Assembly: GCF_026191375.1 (NCBI RefSeq) | Contig: NZ_JAODTL010000056.1 | Location: forward strand, 1-64,000 | DNA: 64,000 nucleotides | DNA from: Marinomonas pontica | Lineage (GTDB): Bacteria; Pseudomonadota; Gammaproteobacteria; Pseudomonadales; Marinomonadaceae | Direction of reading: 5' to 3' | Shown here: positions 41,036 to 64,000 of the stretch, in pieces | How the letters are laid out: the number at the start of each line of letters is the position of its first letter | Position numbering within the stretch: the stretch's first letter is position 1 | The notes under the pieces: generated by a model | Database searches by the model: none | The model's input: the letters and a program-made list of their open reading frames with translations, nothing else | What the model was told of the DNA's origin: nothing | Position numbers and translations under genes: made by a program

Positions 41036-41066
41036 TTGAAAGTGAAGGATATCAACGCATTATAAT
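41036..41066 (+). promoter_or_regulatory. Candidate promoter for the fleQ-like/fleSR genes
   Basis: TTGAAA (41036-41041) and consensus TATAAT (41061-41066) lie in the gap after bioD, but the spacer is 19 bases, longer than ideal. No sigma-54 GG/GC pair was found in this gap. Confidence 0.4.
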
Positions 41067-41111: not shown

Positions 41112-41582
41112 GTGAAGGCTTGGTTATGTGGGTTGGATGATGAAGAAGCGGCAAGCGTTTCCAGCATTTTGACGTTTATTGGTATTGAACATAGTGCATC
41201 ATTGACTTCGATTTCTTTGCCTGATTTTGTTGTGTTGGGCAAAGCAATAGAGTCGTTTGAATTGGATGAAATGATTCCCATCATTTCTTTGCGTTCGGGC
41301 ATGGATATTGTCGGTGATTTTAATGTCTGGTTTTGCCCCCTTCCTTGGCGATCGCAATCGCTTTCTTCGATATTAAAAGAAATCAAACAGCTGCACACAT
41401 TTCCTCAGGCTTCTGGGGTGAATTTAAATTTACACGTTCGTCATTTAGAAGCACTTCTCATCCGCCAAGCTTTAGTGTCTACTCAGGGTGTGGTTTCAAA
41501 AGCCGCGCAAAACTTACAGATACAACGAACCACGCTGATTGAAAAAATGCGTCGCTATAATATTGATAAATCGGAGTTTTAG
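41112..41582 (+). CDS. FleQ/FlrA-like regulator lacking the AAA+ domain
   Basis: The 156-residue product occupies the position of fleQ, directly before fleSR. Residues 1 to about 100 resemble the degenerate receiver domain of FleQ (ILTFIGI near the start, then a loop before LPWRSQSLSSIL). The linker SGVNLNLHVRHLEALLIRQA and the Fis-type helix-turn-helix (VVSKAAQNLQIQRTTLIEKM, RRYNID) match the FleQ C-terminus closely. The roughly 240-residue sigma-54 ATPase domain between them, which also holds the c-di-GMP site of FleQ, is absent with no frame break. So it could bind DNA but not activate sigma-54. The GTG start follows GAGG. The stop overlaps the fleS start. Confidence 0.8.
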   Translation: MKAWLCGLDDEEAASVSSILTFIGIEHSASLTSISLPDFVVLGKAIESFELDEMIPIISLRSGMDIVGDFNVWFCPLPWRSQSLSSILKEIKQLHTFPQASGVNLNLHVRHLEALLIRQALVSTQGVVSKAAQNLQIQRTTLIEKMRRYNIDKSEF

Positions 41583-42736
41583 TGACAAAAGATGAAGAAA
41601 TTGCGGAGTTGAAAGCCGCATTTAAGACGTTTTCTGAGTCGTCTGATGCGTTAGCCAAATCGTACTTAGACCTGCAGCAAGAAGTCACTCGATTATACGA
41701 TCAGCTGGAAAAATCTGAGCAAGATAAGCGCCAAGAGCAAGATAAAAATCGAGTGTTGGTGTTGCAGTTTCAGCAGCTTTTCGAGTCGATGCCGGTCGGA
41801 GTGTTGTTATTAAATGAAGAAGGGGTGGTTGTCATGGCTAACCCTGTCGCTGACCGCTTATTCAATGTGCCTTTGGTTGGTCAATCTTGGGGAACCATTG
41901 TTCCGTTGAGCTTTCGTCCTCAAAAAGACGATGGACACGATGTGAGTATGGTGACGGGGCGTCGTGTCCGTGTTGAAACTGCTTCATTGGGGAATGTGCC
42001 GGGACAGTTGGTTATTTTGGTGGATTTAACGGAAGCCTATTTATTGCAGAAAAAATTGAGCCATCATGAGCGCCTGTCGAATATGGGGAAAATGGTAGCG
42101 GCGTTAGCGCATCAGATTCGAACTCCTTTGTCTTCTGCAACCTTATATGCTGGTCATTTGCAAAAGCCGGATTTGGCTCCGGTGATGCGACAAACGTTTG
42201 CGAATAAATTAGTGGATAGACTGGCCAATATTGAAAAGCAAATACGTGATATGTTGATATTTTCTCGCAGTGAAATAAAACTGGATGAAACGGTCAGTGT
42301 CTCAGCCTTCATTAGGGAGCTGACAGATCAAAGTAAAGAAATTTGCGACCAAAAAAACATGCAGTTTGACGCCTCAGGGGCGACATTTTCGGCAACGGAT
42401 TGTATTCAGTGCAATAAAGAAACATTATTAGGGGCATTATTAAACCTTGTAAATAATGCGGTCGATGCGCAGTCTGAGGGTGGTTTGGTTCAGTTGCATT
42501 GGCGAAACAGTCATGGTTTTTTGACGTTGTTATTTAAGGACCGTGGTGAAGGGATGTCTAAAGCGCAGCTAGAACATGTGCAAGAAGGTTTTGTGACAAC
42601 AAAACAGCATGGCACTGGGTTGGGTTTGATGGTTGTGAAAGCCATCGCTCGGGCTCATCATGGTCAATTTGAAATAGACAGTATAGAGGGAACTGGAACG
42701 ACAGCCAGTTTTACGTTACCTCTTGTAAGGGTATGA
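41582..42736 (+). CDS. fleS: Flagellar sensor kinase FleS/FlrB
   Basis: This soluble histidine kinase controls class-III flagellar genes through FleR. It has an N-terminal coiled coil (residues about 5-60), a PAS domain (60-150; ESMPVGVLLLNEEGVVVMANP), a dimerisation and phosphoacceptor domain with His177 in ALAHQIRTPLSS, and a HATPase domain (NLVNNAVDAQSEGG, FKDRGEGMS, GTGLGLMVVKAIA). There is no membrane segment. The GTG start overlaps the preceding stop by one base. Confidence 0.92.
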   Translation: MTKDEEIAELKAAFKTFSESSDALAKSYLDLQQEVTRLYDQLEKSEQDKRQEQDKNRVLVLQFQQLFESMPVGVLLLNEEGVVVMANPVADRLFNVPLVGQSWGTIVPLSFRPQKDDGHDVSMVTGRRVRVETASLGNVPGQLVILVDLTEAYLLQKKLSHHERLSNMGKMVAALAHQIRTPLSSATLYAGHLQKPDLAPVMRQTFANKLVDRLANIEKQIRDMLIFSRSEIKLDETVSVSAFIRELTDQSKEICDQKNMQFDASGATFSATDCIQCNKETLLGALLNLVNNAVDAQSEGGLVQLHWRNSHGFLTLLFKDRGEGMSKAQLEHVQEGFVTTKQHGTGLGLMVVKAIARAHHGQFEIDSIEGTGTTASFTLPLVRV

Positions 42737-42737
42737 A

Positions 42738-44084
42738 ATGTCTGATGTAAAGTTATTAATTGTTGAAGATGACAAAGGGCTTGCAGAGGCGCTGGAAGAC
42801 ACGCTGATGCTGGCAAGTTATCAATGCAAGGTGGTTTACAGCGCCGAAGAGGCCATTATTGCGTTAAAGCATGCGGTCTTTGATATGGTGGTGTCTGATG
42901 TAAATTTGCCTGGCATGGATGGATACGGTTTGTTGCATCATGTCATCGACACCTACTCCGAGTTGCCTATTATGCTGATGACGGCGTATGGCGATATTGC
43001 TCATGCAGTGGAAGCGATGCGAGATGGTGCGGTTGATTACCTTTTAAAGCCATTTCAGGAAGAGGAACTGCTTAATGCGATCGCTAAGTACACGGTAAAA
43101 GCAGCCCCAGCAGTTAGTCTTCAGCCGATAGCAAAAGACCCATCAAGTATTGCTTTGCTTGAATTGGCAAAGCGTGTCGCTGTAACCGATTCGACAGTAT
43201 TGATTTGTGGTGAAAGTGGAACGGGTAAAGAGGTGCTTGCTCACTACATTCATCAGAATTCAAGTCGTCCAAATGCACCTTTCGTGGCGATTAACTGCGC
43301 AGCCATCCCAGAAAATATGCTGGAAGCTATTTTATTCGGTTATGAAAAAGGCGCTTATACAGGCGCGATTTCTTCACAGGCGGGTAAGTTCGAGCAAGCC
43401 AATGGTGGAACCTTGCTGTTGGATGAAATTACTGAAATGGATGTTGGCTTGCAAGCTAAGTTGCTTCGTGTGCTCCAAGAGCAAGAAGTAGAGCGCCTTG
43501 GTGGTAAAAAGTCGATACCTTTGGATGTGCGTATCATTGCGACCACCAACCGAGATCTTGCAGATTATGTTCGTGAAGGTGGTTTCAGGGAGGATTTGTA
43601 TTACCGTTTAAATGTGTTTCCTCTTCGCTGGCAGCCTATTCGTGAAAGAAAAGGCGATATTCTTCCCATTGCGCAACATTTGTTGGCAAAGCACGCCGCT
43701 AAAATGCGTATCGTGGGGGCTGTTTTAAAACCGTCTGCTCAGAGTAAGCTGGAATCTCACCCTTGGCCTGGTAATGTGCGTGAATTAGACAACGTGATTC
43801 AGCGCGCTTTAATATTAAGCCCCAATGCACAAATCAATGAGGATCATATTGCGTTTGATATGATGAGCCTCACGCCGGTTGCGACCGAGGCAGTTGTGGA
43901 AGAAGACAGCGCCGCGTCGATTTTAGGCAAAGGTGTTCAACAACACGAATTCCGTATTATTGCGCAAGCGTTGGTGGATGCGAATGGCAAACGTAAAGTG
44001 GTTGCTGATACGCTGGGCATTAGCCCGAGAACCTTGCGTTACAAAATTGCGAAAATGCGTGAAAGTGGCATAGATGTCGATTGA
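42738..44084 (+). CDS. fleR: Sigma-54-dependent flagellar response regulator FleR/FlrC
   Basis: The product has a receiver domain with Asp54 (VVSDVNLPGMDG), Thr82 region and Lys104, then a sigma-54 AAA+ domain (Walker A GESGTGKE at 158-165, GAYTGA loop at 205-210) and a C-terminal Fis-type helix-turn-helix (KVVADTLGISPRTLRYKI). The sigma-54 contact loop is GAYTGA, not GAFTGA; the F to Y change is known in natural activators. It starts one base after fleS. Since the FleQ-like protein lacks an ATPase, FleR is the only visible sigma-54 activator in the locus. Confidence 0.94.
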   Translation: MSDVKLLIVEDDKGLAEALEDTLMLASYQCKVVYSAEEAIIALKHAVFDMVVSDVNLPGMDGYGLLHHVIDTYSELPIMLMTAYGDIAHAVEAMRDGAVDYLLKPFQEEELLNAIAKYTVKAAPAVSLQPIAKDPSSIALLELAKRVAVTDSTVLICGESGTGKEVLAHYIHQNSSRPNAPFVAINCAAIPENMLEAILFGYEKGAYTGAISSQAGKFEQANGGTLLLDEITEMDVGLQAKLLRVLQEQEVERLGGKKSIPLDVRIIATTNRDLADYVREGGFREDLYYRLNVFPLRWQPIRERKGDILPIAQHLLAKHAAKMRIVGAVLKPSAQSKLESHPWPGNVRELDNVIQRALILSPNAQINEDHIAFDMMSLTPVATEAVVEEDSAASILGKGVQQHEFRIIAQALVDANGKRKVVADTLGISPRTLRYKIAKMRESGIDVD

Positions 44085-44151
44085 TTTTTGTATCTTGTTT
44101 TAATTAGCTTTATGCTAAGCTGTACAAATGTGATTTTTTAGGTGAAAAAAC

Positions 44152-44514
44152 ATGATTACTGGTCGACCAGACATTAATCAGGTGTTATCTCAAATGAGAG
44201 AAATGCAGTCGCAAGTTCGTGCGCCTAACTCTGCTGTGCCTACTGTCACCAAAAACGGTGGTGAAGGAGACGGCGGTCAGGCTGTTGAACGTGCAGACTT
44301 TGCAGAAATGCTGAAAAATGCGGTCAATAACGTGAATACTTTACAAAAAGAGTCGACTCAATTAGCCCAATCTTATGAGCGCGGTGACGAAGGGGTGGAT
44401 TTACCCCAAGTCATGATTGGTTTGCAAAAGTCGAGCGTGTCATTCGAAGCAATGACGCAGGTGCGTAATAAACTTGTAGACGCGTATGAAAAAATCATGA
44501 ATATGCCGATTTAG
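44152..44514 (+). CDS. fliE: Flagellar hook-basal body protein FliE
   Basis: The 120-residue basal-body adaptor joins the MS ring to the rod. The C-terminal family core is visible: FAEMLKNAVNNVNTLQ, DLPQVMIGLQKSSVSFEAMT and VRNKLVDAYEKIMNMPI. A weak sigma-70-like pair, TTGTAT (44088) and TATGCT (44111), lies upstream; no sigma-54 site is evident in the 67-base gap. Confidence 0.94.
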   Translation: MITGRPDINQVLSQMREMQSQVRAPNSAVPTVTKNGGEGDGGQAVERADFAEMLKNAVNNVNTLQKESTQLAQSYERGDEGVDLPQVMIGLQKSSVSFEAMTQVRNKLVDAYEKIMNMPI

Positions 44515-44541: not shown

Positions 44542-46217
44542 ATGGATAATATCCCTGCAGAACAATCGGAGCAAAAGCTCTATCTAGAGTTGGTTACCGG
44601 CTTTAATAAATTGACGGTAATACGTCAGCTTGCCCTAATGGTGGGCTTAGCGGCTTCTATCGCCATAGGTTTGGCTGCGGTTTTATGGAGCAATGGCCCA
44701 GATTACAAGCCAGTGCTTAGTAGCATTACGGACTATAATGCCGATCAAATCGTTGAGATTCTCAGCGTCAATAACATCCCATTTAAATTGGACCAAAACA
44801 CAGGTGCCTTGCTGGTAGAGTCCGACTTTTATCATCAGGCTCGGCTTAAATTAGCGGGTTCTGGCATTGTTTCTGACAACATTGTTGGCATGGAGATAAT
44901 GGACCAAGAGCAAGGTCTTGGTACTTCCCAGTTTGTCGAAACGACCCGCTATCGGCGTGGGCTTGAAGGCGAGCTAAGTCGAACGATTTCCAGCCTACAA
45001 AGTATTAAAAGTGCAAGAGTGCACTTAGCTATCCCCAAAGAATCTGTGTTTGTTCGTGACACTCGTAAACCATCTGCGTCTGTTTTTCTGGAACTTTATC
45101 CTGGTCGACGTTTAGACAAAAGCCAAGTCGAAGCCATTGTCAATTTGGTAGCTTCTAGTATCTCTCAGTTAAGCGATAAAGACGTTACTGTGGTTGATCA
45201 GCGTGGCACATTGTTGACAGAAAAAGATTCCAACTCGGAGTTATCTGTGGCTGGCAAGCAGTTTGATTATGCTCGCAAAGTCGAAGATGTATTGCTACAG
45301 CGTGTAAACAATATTCTTGGCCCCGTGGTTGGTCAGGGACGCTTCAAAGCCGAAGTGTCTGCTGATGTCGACTTTACGGCGGTTGAAAAAACAGACGAAC
45401 AGTACAACCCCGATTTGCTGGCGTTACGAAGCGAACAAACCTTAAAAGAAAATCGTGGTGCTGGCGCAAATGCGAGCGGTATTCCTGGAGCCTTGACCAA
45501 TCAGCCCCCGGAGCGGTGACTATTCCTGAGGCGGTTGATCAAAATGGCGCGCCAATTGGTGGAAGTACCTCTGCAGCTAATGGTCAGTCACGAGAAGAAA
45601 CGACCCGTAATTTTGAATTAGATCGAAGCATTAGTTACACCAAGCGTCAGCAAGGCATGGTGAGACGTTTGTCTGTGGCAGTGGTGGTGGATGACCTGGT
45701 CAGTTTGAATCCAGACACTTCTGCCATTATTCGTACGCCGTGGAATGATGATGAACTGGGGCGTTTAACTCTCTTGGTGCGCGATGCGGTTGGTTATGAT
45801 CCGTCTCGCGGTGACAGTGTCAGTGTGATTAATTCGCCGTTTGCTTTACCCGATCCTGAAGAGCCTGTTGTTGAGCTGCCTTTCTATCAGCAAGCTTGGT
45901 TCCTGAATTTAATTCAGCCAACCTTGGTTGGTTTGTTTGTGTTGATTCTATTGCTGGTCGTCGTTCGACCTATATTGAAAACCCTTAGTGACCAAAATAA
46001 AATTGCGGTTACAGAAGACACTGAAGCTGCGATATTCTCTGATGAAACCGATGAGATTTCTGACGATCAGGTGTCTTTAGTCAGCGCCGAGGATATTTTG
46101 GTACCAGGATCACCAGAGAAAATTGACAGACAATTGAACGCAATTCGTGGTTTGATCGCCGAAGAGCCAGAGCGTGTTGCTCAAGTCGTTAAACAGTGGG
46201 TAATGGAAAGCAAATGA
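44542..46217 (+). CDS. fliF: Flagellar MS-ring protein FliF, frame broken as sequenced
   Basis: This inner-membrane ring protein is the base for assembly of the whole flagellum. It has a first membrane segment (residues about 30-50), YscJ-like ring-building domains (VLSSITDYNADQIVEILSV; ARVHLAIPKESVFVRD), a second membrane segment near 460 and a C-terminal FliG-binding tail. The first frame ends at 45519 in NQPPER. One added C in the run 45505-45509 restores GALTNQPPGAVTIPEAV and a 558-residue protein (E. coli 552). The stop overlaps the fliG start (ATGA). Confidence 0.92.
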
Positions 46218-62824: not shown

Positions 62825-64000
62825 GTGGATTTTGACCGCAGCCGTATTGCAGGGCAGGTTCAAGGGATTTTTAGTGGGAATCTAGGTATTCCTATTTTGT
62901 TATTGTCGCTGTTGGCGATGATGATATTGCCTATTCCTGCGTTTTTACTGGATGTGCTTTTTACGTTCAATATCGCCTTGGCCATTGTTGTGTTGTTGGT
63001 GGCGATTTATTCCATGCGTCCTTTGGATTTCGCTGTTTTCCCTACTGTGTTGCTTGTCTCGACACTCATGCGATTGGCGCTTAATGTGGCCTCGACGCGA
63101 GTGGTGTTGCTGAATGGGCATGAGGGTGGTGATGCGGCTGGTAAGGTTATTCAGGCGTTTGGTGAGGTCGTTATTGGTGGTAACTACGTTGTTGGTTTTG
63201 TGGTGTTTGCCATTTTAATGATCATAAACTTTGCTGTGGTGACAAAAGGTGCTGGGCGAATCTCTGAAGTGAGTGCGCGTTTTACCTTGGACGCTATGCC
63301 AGGCAAGCAAATGGCTATTGATGCGGATTTGAACGCTGGCATGATCGATGCCGATCAAGCGAAACAGCGCCGTACGGAGATCGCTGCCGAAGCCGAATTT
63401 TATGGCTCTATGGATGGTGCGTCGAAATTTGTAAAAGGGGACGCAATTGCCGGGTTGCTTATCCTAGGTATCAATATCATTGGTGGTTTGGCCATCGGTA
63501 TGGCGCAGCATGACTTGTCTTTTGCGGAAGCGATTGAGCGCTATTCTTTGTTAACTATTGGTGATGGCTTGGTCGCGCAGTTGCCTTCATTAATGTTGTC
63601 CACGGCCGCCGCGATCATGGTAACTCGGGTTAATGAGTCTGGTGATATGGGCTCGCAAATTGTCCGCCAGATGTTTGGTTCTTCTAAAGCGCTTTATGTC
63701 GCAGCCGGTGTCATGACGATTATGGGGATTGTGCCTGGCATGCCTCATTTTTCCTTTTTGTCTTTAGCGGCTTGCATTGGTGGTCTGGCATATTTCCTCG
63801 AATATCGTAAAAAACAGAAACCAAAACAAGGGCCAAAAGGGGCGAGCAAGACCTCGTCGGAAGCGCCGGTTCCAGCTGAAGTAAGAGATCTTAGTTGGGA
63901 TGACGTTGCGCCAGTGGATATGCTGGGTTTGGAGGTTGGGTATCGGCTGATTCCCTTAGTAGACAAAACGCAAGGTGGCGAATTGTTGGCACGGATTAAG
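62825..64000 (+). CDS. flhA: Flagellar export protein FlhA, N-terminal part (runs off window)
   Basis: The first 392 codons are visible and open to the window edge. The membrane half has NLGIPILLLSLLAMMILP, LLDVLFTFNIALAIVVLL and the FHIPEP-type signature around VTKGAGRISEVSARFTLDAM, followed by the start of the cytoplasmic FliJ/substrate-binding domain. The start is the GTG at 62825, with AGGGA six bases ahead and an in-frame stop at 62813-62815 just before it. The gap to flhB is 33 bases. The 3' end is missing because of the window boundary. Confidence 0.93.
   Translation, partial: MDFDRSRIAGQVQGIFSGNLGIPILLLSLLAMMILPIPAFLLDVLFTFNIALAIVVLLVAIYSMRPLDFAVFPTVLLVSTLMRLALNVASTRVVLLNGHEGGDAAGKVIQAFGEVVIGGNYVVGFVVFAILMIINFAVVTKGAGRISEVSARFTLDAMPGKQMAIDADLNAGMIDADQAKQRRTEIAAEAEFYGSMDGASKFVKGDAIAGLLILGINIIGGLAIGMAQHDLSFAEAIERYSLLTIGDGLVAQLPSLMLSTAAAIMVTRVNESGDMGSQIVRQMFGSSKALYVAAGVMTIMGIVPGMPHFSFLSLAACIGGLAYFLEYRKKQKPKQGPKGASKTSSEAPVPAEVRDLSWDDVAPVDMLGLEVGYRLIPLVDKTQGGELLARIK

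Follow-up and report, generated by a model that had tools for sequence, protein, structure and literature searches.

A FleQ descendant without its ATPase domain in the flagellar gene cluster of Marinomonas

FleQ/FlrA is the master flagellar regulator of Pseudomonas and Vibrio. In the stretch of Marinomonas pontica DNA analysed here (64,000 nucleotides, positions 1 to 64,000 of contig NZ_JAODTL010000056.1, referred to as the window), the place of fleQ before fleSR is taken by a gene for a protein of only 156 residues that has no AAA+ domain. Where does this protein, which we call mini-FleQ, come from, and what could it do at a flagellar promoter? Its gene lies at 41112–41582 on the forward strand, as do fleS, fleR, fliE, flhA and the short upstream elements described below, and was defined from its open reading frame, Pfam, relatives and alignment. 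It starts with GTG, and its final base is the first base of fleS; the open reading frame and the sequence confirm the 156-residue length, clean frame and one-base overlap given in the original prediction. Residues 1–97 (41112–41402) probably form a shrunken REC-like (FleQ) domain, judged by profile alignment and a structure model, and residues 99–156 (41406–41579) form a FleQ-type Fis helix-turn-helix (HTH), identified by structure-sequence match and alignments. The next two genes are named from their place and domains: fleS (41582–42736), a sensor kinase with PAS, HisKA and HATPase_c domains, and fleR (42738–44084), a sigma-54 response regulator with REC, AAA+ and HTH domains. The AAA+ domain of FleR is intact, with GESGTGKE and GAYTGA visible. 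Downstream of fleR, the window continues with fliE (44152–44514), the first gene of an early basal-body operon, and then with fli and flh genes as far as flhA (62825–64000 in the window, running on to 64942). After flhA come flhF (65045–66352) and fliA, with no fleN in between.

The HTH of mini-FleQ is readily traced to FleQ. HTH_8 (E 3.9e-10) is the only Pfam match above cut-off, and the region matches FleQ in the solved structures 8p53 (E 1.4e-8) and 5exx (E 5.7e-7); beyond these, that search gave only two prolyl endopeptidase entries with E up to 1 (0.45 and 1). Compared with a profile of 19 full-length FleQs, the HTH reaches a probability of 99% with 48% identity. In Pfam, mini-FleQ gave no Sigma54_activat or AAA+ match at E 1 or better, as expected from the claim that the sigma-54 ATPase domain is missing. 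For comparison, Pfam gives an outgroup FleQ 96 bits with PF06490 (FleQ) and 254 bits with Sigma54_activat, and FleR 234 bits with Sigma54_activat.

The N-terminal domain is too diverged for Pfam or sequence search, and PF06490 gives no score on mini-FleQ. Aligned by hhalign to the REC region of the 19 full-length FleQs, it is colinear over REC with E 0.0013, a probability of only 17.9% and a score of 24.1; the highest score among 60 column-shuffled controls was 20.9. In the AlphaFold model (mean pLDDT 80.9, pTM 0.51) the N-domain has the order b1-a1-b2-b3-b4-b5-a5; helices a1 and a5 are kept, and a2, a3 and a4 are missing. The structures nearest to the model are the FleQ REC domain 4wxm (Z 11.4, rmsd 2.2 over 99 residues), the FlrA FleQ domain 8h5v (Z 11.0) and FleQ 8p53 (Z 11.0). 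The first receiver from outside the FleQ group follows at Z 10.4, only 1.0 Z behind the FleQ REC and therefore nearly tied with it, and in plain Foldseek the list is headed by response regulators, with FixJ at the top and FlrA at rank 40. The original prediction had assigned both domains to FleQ. This holds for the HTH, which matches 8p53 and the FleQ profile; for the N-domain, the FleQ and FlrA receivers are the top structural neighbours by a margin that other receivers almost close. By its HTH, its receiver-like domain and its place, mini-FleQ is a FleQ descendant.

Is the short gene peculiar to this assembly? We searched the genome itself and 93 relatives. Mini-FleQ is present in 47 of the 48 genomes of the genus (this one and 46 of 47 others), at full or nearly full length and without an internal stop; the sole genome without a match, G043, is 77% complete. 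All 29 named relatives of the protein are from Marinomonas, at 50–89% identity. In outgroups, mini-FleQ as query matches only about the last 50–70 residues of frames that are mostly 460–560 residues long. Compared with the 483-residue outgroup FleQ at locus L092, approximately 980 bases are lost, part of them through the shrunken REC domain, which is more than the roughly 720 bases proposed initially. A deletion introduced by sequencing or assembly has a negligible probability. Genes nearby in this assembly are split (fliF, cheA, cheB), as such an error might suggest, but the same short form occurs in 46 other genomes of the genus, and in the 29 named loci it stands before fleS; it is therefore not an assembly deletion.

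The split genes deserve a description of their own. Four genes seem to be broken up here, although each is a single open reading frame in most of the other seven Marinomonas clusters: fliF (44542–46217 in the window) and, at 68431–70690, 70717–71819 and 72029–72517 of the contig, cheA, cheB and a motor-like gene. In this genome, rpoN and another sigma-54 activator gene (L121) are likewise split, indicating that the assembly is indel-prone or that the genes are decaying.

Outside the genus, no second mini-FleQ was found among the matches listed and in eight loci that were checked (369 genomes of the class, 202 with a match). These loci come from the listed frames under about 460 residues, other than G154, G422 and G181 (415–451 residues). 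Two frames end at contig ends (G306, G246), two are broken with AAA+ present (G440, G356), three encode FleQ relatives with AAA+ and without a full receiver (G313, G258, G227), and one is full length (G223). The opposite reduction, a FleQ-like AAA+ domain and HTH without a full receiver, is seen in other gammaproteobacteria (L161, 852–1991; L165, 4189–5358; L166, 1741–2784).

The order of genes is equally constant. Mini-fleQ lies immediately upstream of fleSR in 30 of 30 loci, with a one-base overlap with fleS in 29 and abutting genes in the remaining one (L090). Among the 15 of 20 outgroup loci in which the fleQ–fleS gap could be measured, it spans 140–519 bases in 14 and is −4 in one (L107). 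Because mini-fleQ and fleS overlap or abut, mini-fleQ, fleS and fleR appear to form a single operon with translational coupling. In part of the diverged clade (L085, L086 and L090), the alignment shows what may be the end of another gene in place of bioD before mini-fleQ; from its motif, this gene would encode an EAL-type c-di-GMP phosphodiesterase.

An overlap of this kind could preserve a decaying relic simply through its junction with fleS. We estimated dN/dS by the Nei-Gojobori method on 30 sequences, using pairs with dS of 0.05–1.5. The median is 0.065 for the whole gene (68 of 435 pairs, maximum 0.43), 0.131 for residues 1–98 (83 pairs, maximum 0.82) and 0.015 for the HTH (115 pairs, maximum 0.18). 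The faster evolution of the N-terminal half, and a whole-protein identity of about 50% between clades, are what a relic might show; the low medians overall and in the HTH, the 50 invariant columns among 28 aligned mini-FleQs and the lack of an internal stop in any of 47 argue against it. The relic explanation is thus largely refuted and very improbable, and mini-FleQ is under strong purifying selection.

Conservation extends to a difference from FleQ in the recognition helix. Gln138-Arg139 (41523–41528) is present in all 28 aligned mini-FleQs (30 loci, L063 and L065 left out) at the position of an Arg-Arg pair that is invariant in all 19 aligned full-length FleQs (20 loci, L093 left out). In Pseudomonas aeruginosa FleQ, this pair is R467 and the next residue, which are proposed DNA contacts. 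The pair is not universal, since the receiver-less FleQ relative in L165 carries Gly-Arg. With glutamine replacing one of two DNA-contact arginines, it is a reasonable inference that the DNA specificity of mini-FleQ has changed.

Mini-FleQ might serve as an antagonist of another FleQ, as first suggested, if a full-length FleQ/FlrA existed in the same genomes. We used an outgroup FleQ with PF06490 and Sigma54_activat domains as query. It recovered no full-length FleQ from the 48 Marinomonas genomes (best E 2.5e-79), a result that contradicts the antagonist proposal. Elsewhere in the order, 29 of 46 genomes, including G084 from which the query was taken, give matches with E below 1e-100. Divergent FleQ-like matches in three outgroups (G056, G061 and G085, about 1.2e-91 to 1.8e-83) lie between, close to the best of the genus, so the gap is not wide by E alone. 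The mini-FleQ HTH as query gives no match in the 48 genomes, apart from mini-FleQ itself, better than E 2.2e-5. Two sets of candidates in the genome of M. pontica were rejected: eleven other sigma-54 activator loci match this HTH at E 1.4e-5 or weaker, if at all, and two PF06490 matches above cut-off lie in proteins with ordinary Response_reg receivers (102.5 and 90.7 bits, versus 28.4 and 20.8 for FleQ).

FleN/FlhG, the partner of FleQ, was searched for with a protein from G052, a MinD/ParA-type ATPase by Pfam whose gene sits between flhF and fliA; we take it to be FleN from this place and its sequence. In the 48 genomes of the genus FleN was not found, the best match (E 8.2e-17, 62 bits, 25% identity) being at the level of MinD/ParA. 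Nor was it found in the 26 genomes searched for 28 of the 29 named Marinomonas loci (best 61.7 bits, L082 left out), which largely repeat the same set and add names rather than independent evidence. In eight of eight Marinomonas clusters fliA directly follows flhF. Of the 46 genomes from the rest of the order, 28 (G052 among them) match the query at E below 1e-60, a cut that 26 of the 29 FleQ-bearing outgroup genomes pass. The remaining three fall short of it, G054 with 162 bits, G057 with E 2.7e-10 and G058 (81% complete) with E 1.6e-9; G061 and G069 pass the FleN cut but not the FleQ cut. In G057, where the FleN query gives only E 2.7e-10, there is a 547-residue FleQ-like protein with a divergent N-domain (L093, 8179–9822). 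The sigma-54 gene, rpoN, was matched in 47 of the 48 genomes and lies above the curated cut-off in 46 listed individually. In M. pontica the gene is in two pieces (on C45) and falls below this cut-off. In G031 (99% complete, five contigs), unlike the other 47, rpoN gave no match.

If FleQ has lost its ATPase, what became of its promoters? Upstream regions of operon heads in eight Marinomonas and six outgroup genomes were scored for −24/−12 sites, with hand-written weights and a cut of 13 or more. Before mini-fleQ, fliE, fliL and flhA, none of 32 Marinomonas regions reaches the cut; in the outgroups it is reached before fleS in 3 of 6, fliE in 2 of 6, fliL in 2 of 5 and flhA in 1 of 4, together 8 of 21. 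Across 30 Marinomonas loci, no site at the cut was found before mini-fleQ (0/30, one reaching 12.3) or before fliE (0/30, none reaching 11), and the earlier observation that both regions lack a sigma-54 site in M. pontica extends to all of them. Median scores are 2.25 upstream of mini-fleQ (n = 30) and 10.9 upstream of outgroup fleS (16 of 20 loci; five at 13 or more, six of the 16 below 10), a difference with a one-sided Mann-Whitney P of 1.1e-5 when kinship is ignored. The wider fliE comparison is weaker: 1 of 7 outgroups reaches 13 and 3 of 7 reach 11, versus 0 of 30 Marinomonas at 11.

A strong site is kept at flgB, in all eight Marinomonas genomes, with scores of 14.5–17.3 and a position 60–61 bases before the start in six. 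A passage of PMC7064773 states that flgB in P. aeruginosa and Vibrio cholerae needs sigma-54 and the FleSR/FlrBC system. Other heads are less clear: fliK scores 11.3 in all eight and also in two outgroups, flgF is mixed, with 1 of 8 Marinomonas at the cut, and the score for flgG in G028 is 15.3. The comparison does not include flhF, since in both groups every match found close to it falls within flhA (highest scores 14.5 in Marinomonas and 13.2 in outgroups). Further matches of 13.5–15.3 occur inside Marinomonas cluster genes, those before fliO and fliP among them. Read most simply, these results mean that the sigma-54 tier under FleQ was dismantled and the one under FleR was kept.

This pattern also bears on the idea that mini-FleQ works together with FleR, through receiver or HTH contacts, with FleR supplying the lost ATPase. 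The adjoining genes and the intact AAA+ domain of FleR fit such a partnership, which is nevertheless improbable: early operons have no recognisable sigma-54 sites, so a borrowed ATPase has no promoter there, and the remaining flgB sites would be targets of FleR anyway.

Which DNA might mini-FleQ recognise instead? Canonical FleQ boxes (GTCAAT-NN-ATTGAC) before Marinomonas flagellar operons were tried and set aside, as with two mismatches most matches in eight clusters fall inside genes. Three are intergenic: G029 alone has one upstream of mini-fleQ, at 61 bp and with one mismatch, and the other two are in G028 and, before an unrelated gene, in G000. Upstream of mini-fleQ, a sigma-70-like pair was noted by eye (TTGAAA at 41036–41041 and TATAAT at 41061–41066); its spacer of 19 is off the optimum, and by eye in the alignment it is similar in many, not all, relatives.

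The regions upstream of fliE and flhF each hold a block conserved across the genus. The block before flhF (ATCTTTCGGGTAAGCTATGGATTTGTAAG in this genome, at 64989–65004 of the contig, with about 50 bases around it) is almost unchanged in all eight Marinomonas clusters. Among the other operon heads, a matrix built from the fliE block scores flhF highest (z 11.1; many windows were compared, with 15 shuffles per window, and z values as high as 9.1 arose between unrelated pairs). The motif that the two regions have in common is CTTTATGCTAAGCTGT at 44108–44123, 44 bases before the fliE start, with its second copy upstream of flhF at 64989–65004, beyond the window. It overlaps a TTAGC-TTTAT-GCTAA dyad (44104–44118). 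The general pattern CTTTNNGNTAAGCTNT has 103 matches in 46 genomes of the genus, against 40 for a reversed control. Placed relative to mini-fleQ, 41 of the 103 are at the flhF position and 22 at the fliE position. The other 40, a number at background level, lie at different positions or could not be assigned one. In only 22 of 46 genomes is there an exact match at fliE. Among 30 fliE regions, TTAGC-N5-GCTAA occurs exactly in 12 and TATGCTAAGCT in 25. CTTTNNGNTAAGCTNT was not found before mini-fleQ or fliL in Marinomonas, nor, with up to two mismatches, before fliE in six outgroups or before flhF in three. The conserved block before fliL has no clear motif in common with the other two. A palindrome common to all early operons was rejected, as the looser pattern CTTTNNGNTAAGCTNT links fliE and flhF only, and sigma-28 promoters at the two blocks, considered by eye, were not supported. 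CTTTNNGNTAAGCTNT may be a mini-FleQ site, part of the core promoter, or the operator of a different protein.

FleQ without c-di-GMP has been proposed to repress biofilm promoters, and mini-FleQ could likewise repress transcription as a Fis-like dimer, either by covering early flagellar promoters or by competing with FleR. The fliE motif would sit in the promoter region, and a passage of PMC10723142 proposes that FleQ-FleN represses via paired FleQ boxes at promoters. Against this, an early tier without FleQ activation needs something to switch it on. Repression alone would leave it otherwise constitutive, which is possible, as a passage of PMC7064773 reports for Campylobacter jejuni. We consider a repressor rather unlikely.

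The reading that we prefer, with a probability of roughly 0.6, is that the whole AAA+ domain of fleQ was lost in an ancestor of Marinomonas, that early flagellar transcription moved off FleQ, FleN and sigma-54, and that mini-FleQ was kept as a Fis-like DNA-binding regulator. We take the known c-di-GMP site of FleQ to lie in the lost AAA+ domain. Loss of this domain leads us to expect no ATP hydrolysis, no opening of sigma-54 promoters, no binding of c-di-GMP at the known site and no hold by FleN via AAA+. The rest of the tier would have changed alongside, with the disappearance of FleN/FlhG and of recognisable early sigma-54 sites, and the FleSR/sigma-54 tier, represented by the flgB rod-hook operon, would have been retained. 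Helix a1 mediates the FleQ REC dimer, which a passage of PMC10723142 calls essential for FleQ function; since a1 is kept in the model, it is plausible that mini-FleQ dimerises through it, as FleQ does. The dimer would bind DNA via its Fis-type HTH and act at non-sigma-54 promoters of early operons, with CTTTNNGNTAAGCTNT before fliE and flhF as the candidate site.

What mini-FleQ does at promoters is a well-grounded guess. A sigma-70-type regulator, one of the options offered by the original prediction, is the mechanism that we favour; binding to CTTTNNGNTAAGCTNT, use of sigma-70 and activation rather than repression are what we infer for it. In its most specific form, for which we would give somewhat less than even odds, the master regulator was rebuilt: after the ATPase, FleN and the sigma-54 promoters went, the receiver-HTH stub would have become a sigma-70-type early activator working via CTTTNNGNTAAGCTNT, in cells that make a single polar flagellum without FlhG.

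With FleQ/FlrA, mini-FleQ has in common the FleQ-type Fis HTH, the place directly before fleSR and, probably, the receiver-like N-domain; it differs in having no AAA+ domain, hence no known c-di-GMP site, and in the replacement of one proposed DNA-contact arginine, and in Marinomonas no FleN partner was found and the early promoters have no recognisable sigma-54 sites. Fis has the same HTH fold (residues 102–152 of the model match DNA-bound Fis, 3iv5, at Z 9.3), and mini-FleQ differs from it by its receiver-like domain and its place in a flagellar operon. Response regulators of the FixJ type, the first Foldseek match, also combine REC and HTH without AAA+, whereas the mini-FleQ form arose by loss from an NtrC-family protein and its HTH is of the FleQ type. 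At the level of the hierarchy, there is a likeness to C. jejuni, which according to a passage of PMC7064773 has no master activator and places rod-hook genes under a two-component system and sigma-54. In contrast, C. jejuni uses FlhG (as stated in a passage of PMC12826062), and Marinomonas keeps mini-FleQ, with FlhG not found in the genomes searched.

In model species, FlhG/FleN limits polar flagella to one. A passage of PMC11165874 reports a single polar flagellum for both Marinomonas phaeophyticola 15G1-11 and M. rhodophyticola KJ51-3, and FleN was not found in the genome of the former (L087 in G481). Among open-licence PMC papers, we found none on Marinomonas FlhF. E. coli MinD represses flagellar genes, according to a passage of PMC12826062, so it is conceivable, by analogy, that MinD has taken over from the missing FlhG.

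Mini-FleQ is a real feature, it extends across the genus, and its reduction belongs to a coordinated set of changes. The rewired flagellar hierarchy, raised as one possibility when the gene was first noticed, is strongly supported by the failure to find FleN, the missing early sigma-54 sites, the retained flgB site and the occurrence of the short form throughout the genus. These observations suggest how an activator of sigma-54 can be converted to a regulator that simply binds DNA, with the following sigma-54 tier, that of FleSR, left in place. A passage of the review PMC12826062 attributes the hyperflagellation of flhG mutants to a likely loss of repression of FlrA/FleQ. A genus without FlhG and without the FleQ ATPase, in which at least one such species has a single polar flagellum, would be a natural test of this idea of how FlhG and FlrA/FleQ are connected.
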